This document shows positions 802 to 8,260 of a DNA stretch of 8,260 bases, piece by piece. Both the position numbers and the translations under genes were made by a program. Numbering within the stretch: position 1 is the first letter of the stretch; the number at the start of each line of letters is the position of its first letter. This stretch comes from Candidatus Zixiibacteriota bacterium (GTDB lineage Bacteria > SM23-81). The stretch spans positions 1 to 8,260 of the forward strand of contig DAOVRJ010000105.1 in the NCBI GenBank assembly GCA_030628225.1, given 5' to 3'. The notes beneath the pieces are model-generated. The model had not been told where the DNA came from and ran no database searches. It saw only the letters and a program-made list of their open reading frames with translations.

Positions 802-827
802 CAATTCAATTTTCAATTTTCAATGCC
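802..827 (+). repeat. 7-base CAATTTT array overlapping a gene end
   Basis: CAAT occurs at 807, 814 and 821 with exact 7-base spacing, plus an extra CAAT at 802. The last codons of the 976-aa kinase (Lys-Ile-Glu-Asn-stop, TGA at 808-806 on the minus strand) are read from this repeat, so the present C-terminus of that protein is made of array sequence. Confidence 0.65.
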
Positions 828-3736
828 TTTAGCCTTCCCCTCGCATCCTCCACCTCCCCAATCCCCTCATCGGCATCCTTCCAGATCTCCAAAAACTCCT
901 CGTACTGCTCCATGGCCTTTTTGTTCCAGCCCGATCTCTCATAAGCCTGGCCCAGATAATAGTGGGCTTTCACAGAAGCGATGGCGTTCAACGCTCGGGT
1001 ACGATTGTGGCAGGAAAGTATATTTTCAAAAGCGCTCACCGACTCTGCCAGCATACCCTGCTCTAAATAGGTCCTGGCCAGCGTGTTGTGAATATAGAAG
1101 TGCGTCGGGAATTCAATTGTATCTTGAAAAGGCTTTTCAAAGTAGGATAGAGCATCCTGAGGTCGACCTCTTGCCAGCTCAACGTGACCTCTGGCATTCC
1201 AGTAATACCCTTTGACCCGAATGGGCTTCCCGGGGATATCTTGCTCCATGATTTCGATCATATGCTGGGCTTTTTCCAACTCACCGTTTTCCGATAAGAA
1301 CTGGACATAATACATCCGCCATTGGTTCGCTAAATACTGGTCGGTTCTGCTGGAGATCTCGATGGCCGTTTCGAGTTCCGATAAGGCCGCATCGAGGTTC
1401 TTCTGCTCTCGGTAGATCGCCGCTTTTACAAACAGCTTGTCATCCTGCCGAGCTTCGGTCCGCTCCATCTCATCCGCCGCCAGCCCATGGTCAAGAACCT
1501 TGAGGGCTTCGTTCAGCTTTCCCTGATAAAGGGGAACGAGGGCTAAAAAAGCTCTCCCCCCTGAGCGAGCCACTTTCTCTGAGCACGAGGTCAGTTCTTT
1601 GTAACAGCTTTCAGCTTTGGCATATTCCCGTGAAAACAGGTACATATGACCCAGCTTTGCCAGGGACGTGTGAAAGTCCGGCTTGATCTGCAAAGCTTTT
1701 TGATACGATTCGATGGCCTGCTCTGTTTTTCCGTTGTTCGCATAGATATCAGCTCTGGTGTCATAAGGGTTGGCTTCCTGCGGAGCTAAGGCAATATATT
1801 TATTGATGGCCCAGAGAGACCTCTCAAAATCGCCCAGCTCGTTGTACATATATGCAAGCCAGTTATAGGCTGGTTTATAAAAAGGATCTATCTCAATGGC
1901 TCTCTCGAACTGATTAGCAGACTTTTCGGCATCGCCAAGGAAATCGCTATAAATGATCCCTAAATAGAGAAAAGCATATTTCTCATCCGTATAGCATTCG
2001 ACTATTTCCTGCAATTCATTGATGGCCTGGTCATATTCTCCCGAAACCAGCGCATGCATGCTGTGAATGTACTTCCGCTCCATACGGCTGACTCTGCCAG
2101 AGTATTTCACTGCTTTACTGAGCAGCTCCTCCCGATTCTCAATTCCCGTTATGTTGGCAAGCTGATAATAGGCCATGGCAAAGGTGGAATCGTACTCCAG
2201 AGCTTTGCGTAAGCTCTTCTCTCCTTCCAAAATATATACCTTGGACAGATAGTCAACGCCCTCAACATAATAACGGTAGGCCTCGGGCGAATGAGTGGTC
2301 ACATCGGCGATCTCAGGATCCTTCTCGTGCTGAGCTTCGACAGGAAGGGAAAGGTCCTCCTTTACCTCAACGGTCAGCCTATCCACCAGGGAAAATATCT
2401 TCTCGCCAGACTCCCCGGTGATTCGCTGCGAGGCTATCACCTTGCCGCTTGATACTTCGACTAGCTGAGAGGTCAGCACGACCTGTGGTTCCACCTGGAG
2501 GATGTTGCCGAGAAGCATATATTTGGCCTTCGCTTCGTTGGCCACCTCCGAGGCCACTTCTCGATCGATGACCTTGTCTCCCTCCCTGCCCAGCAGTTTC
2601 AGAATGTCGTACAGCCTCTGGCTGGAAACCACTCTCATATATTGAGACTCTGAGAGATCGGTGATCAACAGATTGGTGACGATCTCGCCCAGTCGTTTTT
2701 CGTCCTCCCCATCCGTCAGATTCTCGAAATACATGATGGCCAAAGAATTCTCCTGAGCGCTGGCCTCCTGCTGCGGACCGATCTCTACCCGGAAGGGCTT
2801 GAAGATGAAGAACAGAGTGATGGCCAGAAAAACGACCGAGGCGGGCACGATCACCGAGAGGCGGGCTTTCTTCGGCCTGGCCATGCTCACTCTGGAAGGA
2901 GCTCGACCTGTGGTGGTATACTCCAGAATCCTCCTCTCATGTTTCAGATCTGCCAATACCCCATCGATGTGTTGATAGCGTTCTTCCCTGTCTTTCGTCA
3001 ATGCTTTTTCCACGATCCGCTGCAGCCCCTCCGGAACATTGGCTTTATACCGTGCCAAAGGCTCCGGCGTCTCGTTGACGATGGAGTAGATCACGGCCGC
3101 CTCGTGATCGCCCCTGAACGGCAACTGTCCGGTGATCATCTCGTACAAGACCACACCGAAGGAGAAAATGTCCGACCGCTGATCCACCTCCATGGCCTGG
3201 GCCTGCTCCGGAGACATGTAGGCCACCGTCCCCAGGGTCGAGCCGGTGGAGGTCAGCTTGGTGGCCCCCTTCAGCTTGGCCAGCCCGAAGTCCATGATCT
3301 TCACCCGGCCCTCGGGCGCGACCATGATGTTGTCCGACTTAATGTCCCGATGGACCACATCCTTCTCGTGAGCTGCCGTCAATCCCTCGCAGATCTGAAC
3401 GGCGATGTCCAGGACCTTCTTGAGGGTTAGCTTCTCCTTCTCGATCAGTTCCTTGACACTCTGACCCCGGCAGTACTCCATGACGATGAACAGCCGGCCG
3501 TCGAATTCATCGATTTCATAGATCGTGGTGACATTTGGATGATTCAAAGAAGATGCCGCCTTGGCTTCGTGGATGAACCGCTCCTTCCCGACCTCATCGG
3601 CGGTCATGTGCTCGGGCAAAAACTTCAAGGCCACCAGCCGGTCCAGCTTGAGGTCCTGGGCCTTGTACACCACGCCCATGCCACCCTCGCCGAGCTTGTA
3701 GATAATTTCATAATGTGAGATGGTTTTGCCGATCAT
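806..3736 (-). CDS. Membrane-anchored Ser/Thr kinase with TolB-like domain and TPR array
   Basis: A 976-aa receptor-like kinase. The Hanks-type domain (about 1-270) has GEGGMGVV (16-23), Lys38, HRDIKSDN (129-136), DFG (149-151) and SPE (175-177), so it should be active. A basic stretch (RPKKAR, 287-292) precedes one hydrophobic span (about 294-312), which places the kinase in the cytoplasm and the remainder outside the inner membrane. Residues 330-465 resemble the TolB/FlgO-like domain found in COG5616-type proteins (LAIMYFENL..., then KYMLLGNI and [14 protein letters not shown]). Residues of about 480-965 are TPR-like helical repeats (for example [49 protein letters not shown]), a likely protein-binding or ligand-sensing scaffold. 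The start overlaps the previous gene's stop by 4 bases (ATGA), which suggests translational coupling; a GGGA lies 8 bases upstream. Sampled lines are about 53-63% G+C in the kinase part and about 37-48% in the TPR part. The partner and signal are unknown. Confidence 0.95.
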
Positions 3737-5967
3737 TTTCCCAATCCCATTTTCTTCAGCAACGCCGTGAACCTTGGATCCGAGCGCATATTGTCAAATG
3801 CTGGTTCCACTTTGATCTCACATAGCAAACTATCACGTTCCTCATAAGCCTTTTCAAGCCATTGGAATACCTGATCCTTCTTACCAAAGGCGGTGTGGAT
3901 TAAAGCTATCCCGTACGATGAGACATACTTTCGTTTCGATAGCTCCTTCAATTCGTCGAGTATTTTCAGCGCCTCACCTCTCTTGCCTGCCACTGCATAG
4001 GCGTGTCCAAGCTGCGTTATGAATATGGGGCTGCCCAAGGAGAGGTTTGTTGCCTCTTGAAATTCTGACACGGCTTCCTCACACATCCCCTTTCGCAGAT
4101 ACGCCTCACCGAGATTGCTGTGCGCCGGGATGAAGTTCCGCTCCATTTCGAGCGCTTTTCTGCATTGCCCTATCGCCTGGTCGTACTGACGCGCCTCGCA
4201 AAATACCGCTCCTACGAGCGCGTTTATGATGAGCGAAAGCGGGTCAAGTTCTTGAGCTCGTTTAGCCTCGGCGATTGACTCATCGTGCCTCCCCATTACC
4301 GCTAAATAATAAGCATACCACTGGTGAGCTGTTGCATAGCTTGGGTTGAGCTCAATGGCTCGCTTGAATTCCCTCTCAGCGCTTTCCCAGTTCCAATCGT
4401 GTACCGCTCTGACGAATGCCAGCGAGTTGTGAGCCTCGGCAAGGGTTTCATCTATCTCCAGTGCCTTCTTTGCTGCCACCTTTGCCCGAGGGTAAACCTC
4501 TTTAGGGTGAAGATAACCAAAGTGGCCAACGAGATTGTAATAGTCGGCTATTCCTGCGTAGGCCGAAGCATAGGTCGGGTCTTTTTCGATCGCCTGCTGA
4601 AAGTATCCCAGACCCTTCTTCAGTCCCTCCTCTGTTCTCTTGTTCAAGAAGTAGCGGCCCTTTAAATATAGGTTGTACGCATCCGGACTCTCTGTATGAC
4701 GTTTCACAATAGCCGCTTTTTCTTTTCCTAAAAGCTTAACCTTCAACTTTTCTACAATCGCCAGGGATATCTCATCCTGAATGGCGAAGATATCCTCCAT
4801 ATCCCGGTCGTACCGCTCCGACCAGAGATGGTAGCCGTCAGCAACGTTGACAAGCTGTGCCGAGATACGCAGGCGATTATCCACTTTCCGCACACTGCCT
4901 TCTAACAGCGTCTTCACTTTCAGCTTTTTACCAATATCGCGGATGTCCTCCCTCTTATCCTTGAACACAAAACTTGAGGTCCGAGCAACGACACGCAAAC
5001 CTTCAACATGCGTCAGAGCATTGATGATCTCCTCTGTCATGCCATCACAGAAGTACTCCTGCTCTGGGTCGGCGCTCATATTCGTAAACGGTAGCACAGC
5101 AATGGAGGGCTGAGACTTGGTGGCAGCCGGTACCTTTAAAACCCCGGACTCCAGATCTTTCCGGACCTTTCTCAAATCGACCAGAATCTCCTCAGTGTTT
5201 GGGTAACGTTCCTCCGGTCTTTTGGCAAGCGCCTTGTTGACCATCTGCTCTAACTCCATCGGCACGCCGGTCCGCAAACCTGTTACCGGCTCCGGCTCTT
5301 CATTCAAAATCGAGTACACCACAGCCTGATCATATTCCCCTTTGAACGGCAGCTTCCCGGTAAGCATTTCATACAGGACAACACCCAGAGACCAGATGTC
5401 CGTCCGGCGATCTACCTTCTCCCCACGAGTTTGCTCCGGGGACATATAAGCCACTGTTCCTAAAGTTGCGCCTGCTTTTGTTAGCTTGCTCTGCCCAGCT
5501 AACTTGGCCAGCCCGAAATCCAAGATCTTCACCTGGCCATCTTCGGTGACGAAGATGTTGCCTGGTTTTATATCCCGATGCACAATCCCCTGCCCGTGTG
5601 CCTTGGTCAGACCCTGGGCCACTTGAATGGCGATGTCCAGCGCTTCGTCTAACTTCAAATGCCCTCGCTCGACCTTCTCGTCCACCGTCTCGCCCTGGTA
5701 GCAGGCCATGGCAATGAACATTCGCCCATCGTCGGTTTCATCAATTTCATAAATGGTGCAGATGTTTGGGTGATCCAATGCCGAGGCCGCTTGAGCTTCC
5801 TGAATGAAACGCTCCTTGGCCTCGGCATTGCGGGTTAAATCAAACGGCAGGAATTTCAAAGCAACGATGCGTTTGAGCTTCGTGTCCTGAGCCTTGTACA
5901 CCACGCCCATGCCACCCTCGCCGATTTTTTCCAGGATCTTGTAATGTAGAATAGTTTTGCCGATCAT
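3733..5967 (-). CDS. Soluble Ser/Thr kinase with TolB-like domain and TPR repeats
   Basis: A 744-aa protein and the first gene of the kinase cluster. The Hanks-type domain (about 1-270) has GEGGMGVV (16-23), Lys38, HRDIKPGN (130-137), DFG (150-152) and SPE (176-178). A short linker (271-285) with no hydrophobic span leads to a TolB-like domain (about 286-415: [23 protein letters not shown], split here as [10 protein letters not shown] and [11 protein letters not shown]; then [25 protein letters not shown]). TPR units follow (about 427-700), including [29 protein letters not shown] and [12 protein letters not shown], and the C-terminus ([21 protein letters not shown]) is typical of this kinase/TPR family. 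Without a membrane span or signal peptide it is predicted to be cytoplasmic, unlike the kinase it overlaps. Role inferred: phosphorylation signalling with TPR-mediated partner choice; the substrate cannot be told. The start follows GAGG 8 bases upstream, and its MIGKTI opening matches the paralogues. Confidence 0.95.
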
Positions 5968-6058: not shown

Positions 6059-6117
6059 AGGATGCTGGTAAAGGAAAGACCGATCCTTGATCCTTGATCC
6101 TGGATGCTGGTTAAAGG
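6059..6117 (+). repeat. 7-base GATCCTT/GATGCTG array with flanking direct repeat
   Basis: GAT starts at 6082, 6089, 6096 and 6103 at exact 7-base steps (GATCCTT, GATCCTT, GATCCTG, GATGCTG). The motif GGATGCTGGT followed by TAAAGG occurs at both ends (6060-6074 and 6102-6117, the second with one extra T), so the block looks like a duplicated element with the tandem units between. Confidence 0.7.
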
Positions 6118-6118
6118 C

Positions 6119-6166
6119 CGAGATTCGAGACTTGAGACTCGTTGAACCCCGAGACTAGAGACTCGT
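6119..6166 (+). repeat. 7-base GAGACTC/GAGATTC array
   Basis: GAGA starts at 6120, 6127 and 6134, then, after a degenerate stretch and a 3-base phase shift, at 6151 and 6158. The units read GAGATTC, GAGACTT, GAGACTC. The block sits between two TAAAGGC linkers (6112-6118 and 6166-6172). A sister array of the same family is at 8229-8255. Confidence 0.7.
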
Positions 6167-6191
6167 AAAGGCTGAAGTCAAAATATTTTCC

Positions 6192-6233
6192 CATTTTGCA
6201 TTTTTCACTTTTCATTTTTCACTTTGCATTTCT
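6192..6233 (+). repeat. 7-base CATTTTT/CACTTTT array
   Basis: CA starts at 6192, 6199, 6206, 6213, 6220 and 6227, six times at exact 7-base steps, with units CATTTTG, CATTTTT, CACTTTT, CATTTTT, CACTTTG. The array overlaps the 3' end of the minus-strand 95-codon ORF and encodes its last seven residues and stop. Confidence 0.8.
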
Positions 6234-6499
6234 TTTACCAGGATCCAGTATCCAAAAATCATACCGTGATACCTAATTAAAACCGGAATTTTCTTGTTGT
6301 CAATGGAAATGGTGGGGTATTCTGACCTAAAGGATATTTTCAGGATGGAATCGACCCTGCACGGATTAAATTTAGGGTCCTTTGCCATGGATGTCAAAGC
6401 ATTTTTCTGTGTTTGGGACAAAAGATACACAGAGATACAATTCAGTTCGATAACACAAGCGTGAGAATACTGAGCGGCTTTCATTTTTAAAGAAGGCAT
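6212..6499 (-). CDS. Small hypothetical protein, 95 aa, possibly a gene remnant
   Basis: I do not recognise this protein. It runs from an ATG at 6499 to a TGA at 6214-6212. No signal peptide, membrane span or known motif is evident; the middle is mildly basic and the C-terminal half reads like a beta-rich segment (TISIDNKKIPVLIRYHGMIFGYWILVKEM). It has three cysteines (15, 21, 47). There is no clear ribosome site ahead of the ATG, and the in-frame codons upstream reach a stop after only four residues. Its last seven codons (KEMQSEK plus start of stop) fall inside a 7-base repeat array, which suggests that the original 3' end has been replaced. It is transcribed away from argF and in the same direction as the kinase cluster, about 245 bases ahead of the first kinase. 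It could be a real lineage-specific gene, a truncated gene or a chance ORF; I cannot separate these by eye. Confidence 0.4.
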   Translation of the reverse strand: MPSLKMKAAQYSHACVIELNCISVYLLSQTQKNALTSMAKDPKFNPCRVDSILKISFRSEYPTISIDNKKIPVLIRYHGMIFGYWILVKEMQSEK

Positions 6500-6852: not shown

Positions 6853-7860
6853 ATGGCAGTTAATCTTCGAGGTCGAAGTCTCGTAAAGTTGCTCGATTTT
6901 ACCCAGGATGAGATTCAATTTCTCCTGGTTCTTGCAAAAGACCTAAAAGATGCCAAATACAGCGGGGATGAGCAACCGTGTTTAAAAGGGAAAAACATCG
7001 CCCTTATCTTTGAGAAAACCTCTACCCGGACGAGATGTGCTTTCGAAGTTGCTGCTTATGATCAGGGGGCTCAAATTACTTATCTGGGACCAACCGGCAG
7101 TCAAATCGGGCATAAGGAAACAATGAAAGACACAGCACGTGTTCTGGGAAGAATGTACGACGGTATTCAATACCGGGGGTTCGGCCAGGAGATCGTCGAG
7201 GAACTTGCCAAATACGCCGGCGTGCCGGTCTGGAATGGATTGACCGACGAGTTTCACCCCACCCAGATTCTGGCTGACATGCTCACGATGCATGAGCATA
7301 CCGCAAAGCAAATAAATGAGATCACTTACTGTTACCTGGGTGACGCACGGAACAACATGGGCAATTCGCTGTTGGTCGGCGGGGCAAAACTGGGAATGGA
7401 TGTGAGATTATGTGCCCCAAAAGAGTGTTGGCCGAGCGAAGACCTGGTGAAGCAGTGTCGGGAAATAGCGAAAAAAACTGACGCCCGGATCACATTGACG
7501 GAGGATGTCACGGAAGGGGTAAAAGATGCTGATTTTCTGCATACCGACGTCTGGGTGTCGATGGGAGAAGCCGCCGAAAAATGGGAAGAGCGCATCAAGC
7601 TGCTTAAACCTTACCAGATCAATAGAGAGCTAATGGAATATACCGGAAACCCGAAGGTGAAGTTCATGCATTGTCTGCCTGCCTTCCATAACAGGAATAC
7701 CACAGTGGGAGAGGATATCTATCAGAAGTATGGATTAGACGGAATGGAAGTGACCGAAGATGTATTCGAATCCAGGTACTCCATTGTTTTTGACCAGGCG
7801 GAAAATCGCATGCATACAATTAAAGCTATTATGGTCGCAACATTAGGGGATCGAGCATAG
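6853..7860 (+). CDS. argF: Ornithine carbamoyltransferase
   Basis: A 335-aa cytoplasmic enzyme that joins carbamoyl phosphate and ornithine to give citrulline and phosphate, the sixth step of arginine synthesis; in arginine-deiminase organisms it runs in reverse. The N-terminal carbamoyl-phosphate domain carries STRTR (57-61), with SQIGHKET (83-90) and [11 protein letters not shown] (100-110) after it, and HPTQILAD (135-142). The ornithine domain carries [10 protein letters not shown] (163-172), DVWVSMGE (232-239) and the catalytic-site HCLP (273-276, Cys274). The C-terminal [13 protein letters not shown] is also typical. Length and all motifs fit the E. coli ArgF/ArgI (and ArcB) subgroup; nothing is missing. 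No other arg or arc gene is next to it, so synthesis versus catabolism cannot be settled here; ArcB is the alternative name. The start is supported by GAAAGGA 7 bases upstream and a family-like N-terminus. It is transcribed away from the kinases and is followed almost directly by a DUF4143 remnant. Confidence 0.97.
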
Positions 7861-8214: not shown

Positions 8215-8260
8215 TTCGTAAAAACCGGGGTTCGGGATTCGAGACTCGAGATTCGTAAAA
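8215..8260 (+). repeat. 7-base GGATTCGA/GACTCGA array with TTCGTAAAA flanks
   Basis: TC recurs at 8232, 8239, 8246 and 8253 at exact 7-base steps, with units GGGATTC, GAGACTC and GAGATTC. The array is bracketed by the direct repeat TTCGTAAAA at 8215-8223 and 8252-8260. The same unit family occurs at 6119-6166. It may continue beyond the window edge. Confidence 0.7.

Follow-up and report, generated by a model that had tools for sequence, protein, structure and literature searches.

A composite heptanucleotide repeat block between two protein genes of a Candidatus Zixiibacteriota genome: probably an arms-only copy of a hairpin-type insertion element

The window, that is, the whole stretch of 8,260 nt that was analysed, belongs to a Candidatus Zixiibacteriota genome (G000; 2.34 Mb in 306 contigs), and a genome of the same family (G001) was compared with it. 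A composite repeat block lies at 6059-6253 between two protein genes, not in a 23S rRNA gene. On its left, two neighbouring serine/threonine protein kinases with TPR repeats occupy 806-5967 of the minus strand and a third begins at 1-600. On its right, the carbamoyltransferase at 6853-7860 has up to 78% identity to proteins of Anaerolineae and Melioribacteraceae, its best match in G001 is merely 42% identical, and its closest relatives are spread over several unrelated groups. As judged from these sequences, this suggests horizontal transfer or a different subtype. A site orthologous to the block was not found in G001, where the neighbouring carbamoyltransferase is only 42% identical. The features of the window were as follows:

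645-766, strand not assigned: second inverted insert, of period 8 (GGATTCGA / GAATCCTT) and purine-first polarity, with arms at 645-679 and 733-766 (TRF)
3733-5967, minus strand: flanking gene, protein kinase with TPR repeats (Pfam PF00069 and TPR)
6060-6077, plus strand: outer left arm GGATGCTGGTAAAGGAAA with the first TAAAGG inside; inverted match of 16/18 to 6229-6246
6082-6110, plus strand: type B array of GATCCTT/GATCCTG, purine-first, four units (TRF); the class is present throughout the genome
6111-6119, plus strand: B/A linker TTAAAGGCC; the junction is repeated in other contigs
6120-6140, plus strand: type A array GAGATTC GAGACTT GAGACTC (TRF)
6151-6165, plus strand: second type A array GAGACTA GAGACTC G, read from the sequence; the A-A-C order also occurs in contig C137
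6166-6191, plus strand: A/C linker TAAAGGCTGAAGTCAAAATATTTTCC; the same in contig C266 and slightly changed in C137
6192-6231, plus strand: type C array of CATTTTG/CATTTTT/CACTTTT, pyrimidine-rich, about 5.7 units (TRF)
6229-6253, plus strand: outer right arm, CTTTTACC and then reversed type B units AGGATCC AGTATCC; inverted partner of 6060-6077
6853-7860, plus strand: flanking gene, ornithine/aspartate carbamoyltransferase family (Pfam PF00185, PF02729)
8215-8260, plus strand: single purine-first arm of TTCGAGA units between copies of TTCGTAAAA, cut by the contig end (TRF)

The block thus runs from the type B array through two type A arrays and a type C array to two reversed B units. The first TAAAGG faces the complementary CTTTTACC across the block, and in DNA folding 6060-6077 base-paired with 6229-6246 (z = -2.94), beating 200 of 200 shuffles. 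When a wider stretch around the block was folded as RNA, the result was unexceptional (z = -1.44). Clear pairing was limited to the outer arms, and the inner A and C arrays had no like partner, so that nesting or decay has to be assumed. The block has inverted short-period arms with the purine-rich side first, its order B, A, A, C, b (reversed B) reading L L L R R. It also has the properties of a heptanucleotide STRR, the name used for the short tandem heptanucleotide repeats of cyanobacteria: its 7-bp units stand head to tail, it is intergenic, and it has many dispersed copies. Rfam gave no matches in the window, and a known structured RNA was therefore ruled out as the identity of the block. 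The period-8 insert of the window showed inverted matches between 645-660 and 744-759, 654-665 and 755-766, and 670-679 and 733-742, while 53 bp of the arm at 8215-8260 recurred identically, in inverted orientation, in contig C20.

Arrays of these types were numerous in the genome. In searches of the whole genome that allowed up to one mismatch, a two-unit type A pattern gave 301 matches against 0 for the reversed control, and a three-unit type C pattern gave 270 against 10. All other array counts cover about 801 kb of the 2.34 Mb, and many of these stretches were picked for holding arrays. Among short tandem periods, 7 was dominant with 76 arrays in the first, array-rich 191 kb, and 32 arrays had its double unit of 14; period 9 occurred 12 times, period 12 five times and period 8 three times, with zero at 4, 5, 6, 10, 11 and 13. 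An unselected sample, with four contigs of N left out, contained 14 arrays of period 7, six of period 14 and 0-3 of the others. One long array (L271, 1819-1980) consists of CTGNNNN units, in which CTG is fixed every seven bases and the four other positions vary. Arrays lay between genes of every orientation, and a promoter- or orientation-specific regulatory role was ruled out on this ground. Furthermore, 42 of 190 contig ends (22%) in the sampled contigs of G000 were within 150 bp of an array, compared with 7% of random positions, indicating that the repeats break the assembly. The proposed identity of the repeats would also account for one cause of broken assemblies.

The preliminary description had drawn attention to TAAAGG at 6069-6074, 6112-6117 and 6166-6171, each time at a boundary between array types, and these positions proved exact: the word stands before the GATCCTT array, between the GATCCTT and GAGACTC-type arrays, and before the CATTTTT array. 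The similar linker reported for the right-end array was also present, as TTCGTAAAA at 8215-8223 and 8252-8260. The plus strand of the window contains five TAAAGG, the other two at 1527 and 6328, against an expectation of about 1.7. In the 801 kb of the genome, TAAAGG was roughly tenfold in excess beside arrays: within about 20 bp of array ends, and relative to the purine strand, there were nine on the 5' side (0.75 expected) and six on the 3' side (0.73 expected). However, other words were commoner at array ends in the same 801 kb, namely AAAGGC (25 against 1.5 expected), AAAGAA (27 against 1.3), GTAAAA (15 against 0.9) and CGTAAA (13 against 0.55). Because these words are stronger, TAAAGG is better seen as one form of a degenerate linker, which is A/G-rich on the strand where the adjoining array is purine-rich, and the idea of TAAAGG as a fixed joining site was rejected.

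The junctions themselves recurred. Contigs C266, C75 and C293 carry the B-linker-A junction as GGTTAAAGGCC or, in reverse complement, as GGCCTTTAACC, and variants of it stand elsewhere. The junctions repeated genome-wide were B-GGTTAAAGGCC-A, A-GTAAAGGCTGAAGTCAAAATATTTTCC-C and, with many variants, A-GTTAAAAGAAAAACCG-B. Larger parts of the block were present in C42 (138 bp, 99% identity), C158 (131 bp, 95%) and C266 (155 bp, 86%), and the linker TAAAGGCTGAAGTCAAAATATTTTCC at 6166-6191 falls inside the matches to C42 and C158. One of these 131-155 bp copies was cut by a contig end, and other loci showed other array orders. The recurring stretches and the differing orders together indicate that the composite was both copied as a unit and reshuffled. 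The array boundaries, whose comparison was proposed in the preliminary description, showed recurrent linker junctions, TAAAGG linkers far above chance and a variable array order. Its argument that independent slippage does not explain the block was borne out, since array-linker-array junctions recur genome-wide and other contigs contain copies of parts of it. Its modular element was right in being modular and dispersed, but the 'cassettes' are the arms of inverted, hairpin-like inserts. On the whole its interpretation was partly supported: it had missed the polarity, the complementary linkers of the two sides and the inverted-arm unit with PF05635-carrying relatives.

Opposite pairs of the same array type within 600 bp of each other occurred in one order only. 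For B followed by reversed B the count was 12:0, for A 3:0 and for D 5:0, while type C pairs ran from reversed C to C (6:0); in terms of composition, the purine-rich array always came first and the pyrimidine-rich array second. After copies were collapsed by the spacer sequence between the arrays, the purine-first polarity was 12:0 in G000 and 7:0 in G001. Collapsing by shared 14-mers was uninformative for G000 (5 to 3), since the arrays share those words, and spacers were used instead. The purine-first order is identical on both strands, like that of a hairpin. G000 and G001 have a median protein identity of 75% (137 reciprocal pairs), and their orthologous junctions differed: one measured 8 bp versus 319 bp with three arrays, and another 307 bp with arrays versus 47 bp without, indicating that arrays come and go. 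At a further locus (L243, 1340-1970), a protein that by eye reads as a RAYT-type Y1 transposase stands beside recurring palindromes rich in GC (CGCCTCTCCTGAGGCG).

In one spacer of G001, inverted type A arrays enclosed a small gene that belonged to PF05635 (23S_rRNA_IVP, a four-helix bundle, S23). Four genomes of the phylum contained one (G000), eight (G001), six (G002) and seven (G003) PF05635 genes, and inverted short-period arrays stood on both sides of many of them. The sole PF05635 gene of G000 had weak arms of its own, and the same genome holds hundreds of arrays. In G001, arrays of two of the window's three types flanked PF05635 genes, type A at L275 and type C at L292; the latter surround a broken copy, and the type C pattern had no other exact match in G001. 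No PF05635 gene was seen with type B arrays next to it. We tested 60 loci: 20 from the own phylum, 26 from elsewhere in the domain, belonging to other families, and 14 from plasmids, mostly cyanobacterial. Of the 60 loci, 53 had strongly inverted flanks or arrays of period 7, 8 or 9 beside them, against 89 of 473 small control genes, and strong left/right complementarity (inverted flank score of at least 18) was seen at 37 of 59 against 4 of 473; these figures are estimates and no census, because the loci were the best-scoring ones and the controls came from array-rich contigs of two genomes. Period-7 arrays occurred in 42% and 48% of PF05635 flanks within 200 bp versus 4% farther out, while other periods reached 0-5%, except for 8 (15% outside the phylum) and 14. 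The polarity was that seen above: left flanks were purine-rich in 27 cases versus 7, and right flanks pyrimidine-rich in 21 versus 3.

When the flanks of each locus were compared with swapped flanks, 17 of 25 loci outside the phylum scored above the 99th percentile of swapped pairs. In the own phylum, 14 of 20 were above the 95th percentile and none above the 99th, because some copies there share arms. Each copy therefore has its own arm pair, or nearly so: arms vary between copies and match within a copy. The PF05635 loci that had no period-7 arms had no rRNA near them (12 of 12 tested) and were ruled out as rRNA inserts; several have arms of period 8 (L301, L305, L311) or 9 (L302), and each copy seems to have an arm period of its own. 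PF05635 elements also occurred inside CRISPR operons, with either cas6 and cas4 or cas10 and cmr3 as their neighbours (L322, L326, L327), which may be the reason why PF05635 is listed among cas-associated genes (PMC3936711).

In cyanobacterial plasmids, arms and gene were present or absent together as units of 414 to 507 bp, and on plasmids of Nostoc, Calothrix and Tolypothrix the element was missing from relatives whose flanks are about 77-95% identical. Alignment revealed a 506-bp insert, flush at both ends, in L323 versus L339; a 414-bp insert in L340 and L342 versus L339, at a different junction of the same gene set; a 507-bp insert in L325 versus L336 and L337; and a 481-bp insert between nrdB and nrdA in L319 versus L338. 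One site was found in three states. It is empty in Nostoc C057 (L333), carries arms and gene in Nostoc C052 (L321) and N. edaphicum (L334), and in Nostoc ATCC 53789 (L335) carries arms with a 28-bp inverted match around another interior with no annotated gene. Gene-less arm pairs, like that of the window, and full elements can thus share one site. The inserts of the two full copies (L321/L334) differ in length by 7 bp. The sites compared showed no clear target-site duplication, and at one site about 40 bp differed in addition to the insert. By alignment, the differences in presence may reflect insertion or excision, in either direction.

We regard the window block as probably a copy, likely nested, of a hairpin-type insertion element of which only the arms are present, a reading that draws on the anatomy, the arm-gene association across families, the polarity, the presence or absence of units at several sites and the three-state site. 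A PF05635 gene does not lie between its arms, and it is for this reason named an arms-only derivative rather than a full element. A search for a PF05635 remnant in the window gave chance-level hits only, the best of them (E 0.004) inside a TPR gene, and a reverse transcriptase was absent from the Pfam results of the window. The results suggest that hundreds of hairpin-shaped inserts, the block among them, are dispersed over this genome, and that inserts of the same shape carry a PF05635 gene in many phyla. The full element would be about 0.4-0.5 kb long and consist of a purine-rich array, usually of period 7, the PF05635 gene and a complementary second array; the window block would have lost the gene or never had it. 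Such an element would fold into a hairpin whose loop contains the gene, like the intervening sequences (IVS) of 23S rRNA, and the stem-loop, as RNA or single-stranded DNA, would be copied. The IVP protein may bind the hairpin and recruit a host polymerase, nuclease or reverse transcriptase; a host enzyme is invoked because the protein is too small for a known kind of transposase. That arms are alike within a copy and unlike from one copy to the next suggests that one arm serves as template for the other. The arms may grow in unit steps, of which L321/L334 offer one case of 7 bp, and template switching between them would preserve their complementarity. A role of the PF05635 protein in mobility is put forward tentatively, and we hold it to be rather doubtful.

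Other explanations were weighed against the same observations. Ordinary heptamer microsatellites might have arisen between genes by polymerase slippage, and chance or the tolerance of such spacers for inserts might account for the inverted pairs and PF05635 genes in them. The variable array length is in keeping with this, slippage has been proposed for heptamers (PMC4692102), and the arrays of G000 far outnumber its PF05635 genes. However, slippage does not foresee the one-way polarity in either genome, nor arms that are complementary within a locus and different between loci, and it is further disfavoured by the joint absence of arms and gene from relatives; we consider it improbable. The arrays might also be regulatory hairpins, maintained between genes because they terminate transcription in both directions, stabilise RNA or bind proteins. 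Their intergenic location, the A-rich before T-rich order and the base-paired outer arms would fit, and TAACTGA heptamers have been proposed as translational control sites (PMC4679880). Nevertheless, orthologous junctions vary in the presence and type of arrays, blocks lie between genes of every orientation, and an Rfam family match was absent, which leaves this explanation improbable too.

An explanation closer to the hairpin-type insertion element is that the elements are moved by another enzyme, e.g., a RAYT (Y1) transposase acting in trans, and that PF05635 only travels with them or regulates them. By inspection only, G000 has a RAYT-like protein and repeated palindromes where a relative has a PF05635 element (L243 vs L183), and the PF05635 protein is small and described merely as a helical bundle. 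Against this, the arms, and likewise the arrays of the block, do not resemble REP palindromes, which are short and GC-rich with a GTAG-type foot, and like arms recur around PF05635 in loci of many families. We therefore judge it unlikely.

On a broader scale, many dispersed heptamer arrays of bacteria could be the arms of mobile hairpins that form a single widespread class and are copied through the action of a four-helix-bundle protein. The array ends would be particular to each copy and complementary to each other through copying of one arm from the other, and the 23S IVS would be members that landed in rRNA. This is a possibility to which we give somewhat less than an even chance. In the open-access literature, where our search was made, no paper joining heptamer arrays to PF05635 was found, and earlier reports may exist. 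If heptamer repeats, which have been described from bacterial genomes for years, and 23S IVS are one thing, the questions about both become testable, with a candidate protein, a defined unit, cyanobacterial carriers that are easy to work with in the laboratory, and sites with and without the element to hand.

Several known systems resemble the inserts in part. MITEs and REP/RAYT elements are likewise short and dispersed, with inverted ends and gene-less copies. However, the ends of the present inserts are copy-specific tandem arrays with no common terminal sequence or clear target duplication; their arms are inverted, as in MITEs, yet not common to different loci, and no parent transposase was found. 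Beggiatoaceae TAACTGA repeats (PMC4679880) form many intergenic heptamer sets in a bacterial genome, but they have one motif and are nearly always direct, with a single inverted case. GGGAATC repeats in Xanthomonas and GGGGAYT repeats in Nostoc, with paired convergent heptamers in Xanthomonas, are also dispersed intergenic heptamer arrays; in the available part of that paper (PMC4692102) they are read as G-quadruplex repeats, with few pairs in Anabaena and no gene linked to them. Xanthomonas campestris, which has such paired GGGAATC arrays, also has a PF05635-type protein of solved structure, XCC0516 (PMC3936711). The P6b stem of the Nostoc tRNA-Leu(UAA) intron shares with the present arms seven-nucleotide motifs of unknown origin and the replacement of motif classes, but it lies inside a group I intron, and a PF05635 gene is not reported in the part of the article at hand (PMC4476775). 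Avd, which diversity-generating retroelements have as their accessory protein, has been reported as a homologue of PF05635 (PMC10053308). In the 23S IVS of Coxiella burnetii, the S23/IVP ORF lies in the loop and the terminal inverted repeats form the stem; the IVS was called selfish, and its function and origin were stated as unclear (PMC4990558). IVS lie in 23S rRNA helices and are excised by RNase III, whereas the present inserts stand between protein genes, have stems made of short-period tandem arrays and are plentiful as arms-only copies. Nevertheless, in both the loop encodes a protein of the same family, complementary ends make the stem, and the length is 0.4-0.5 kb.
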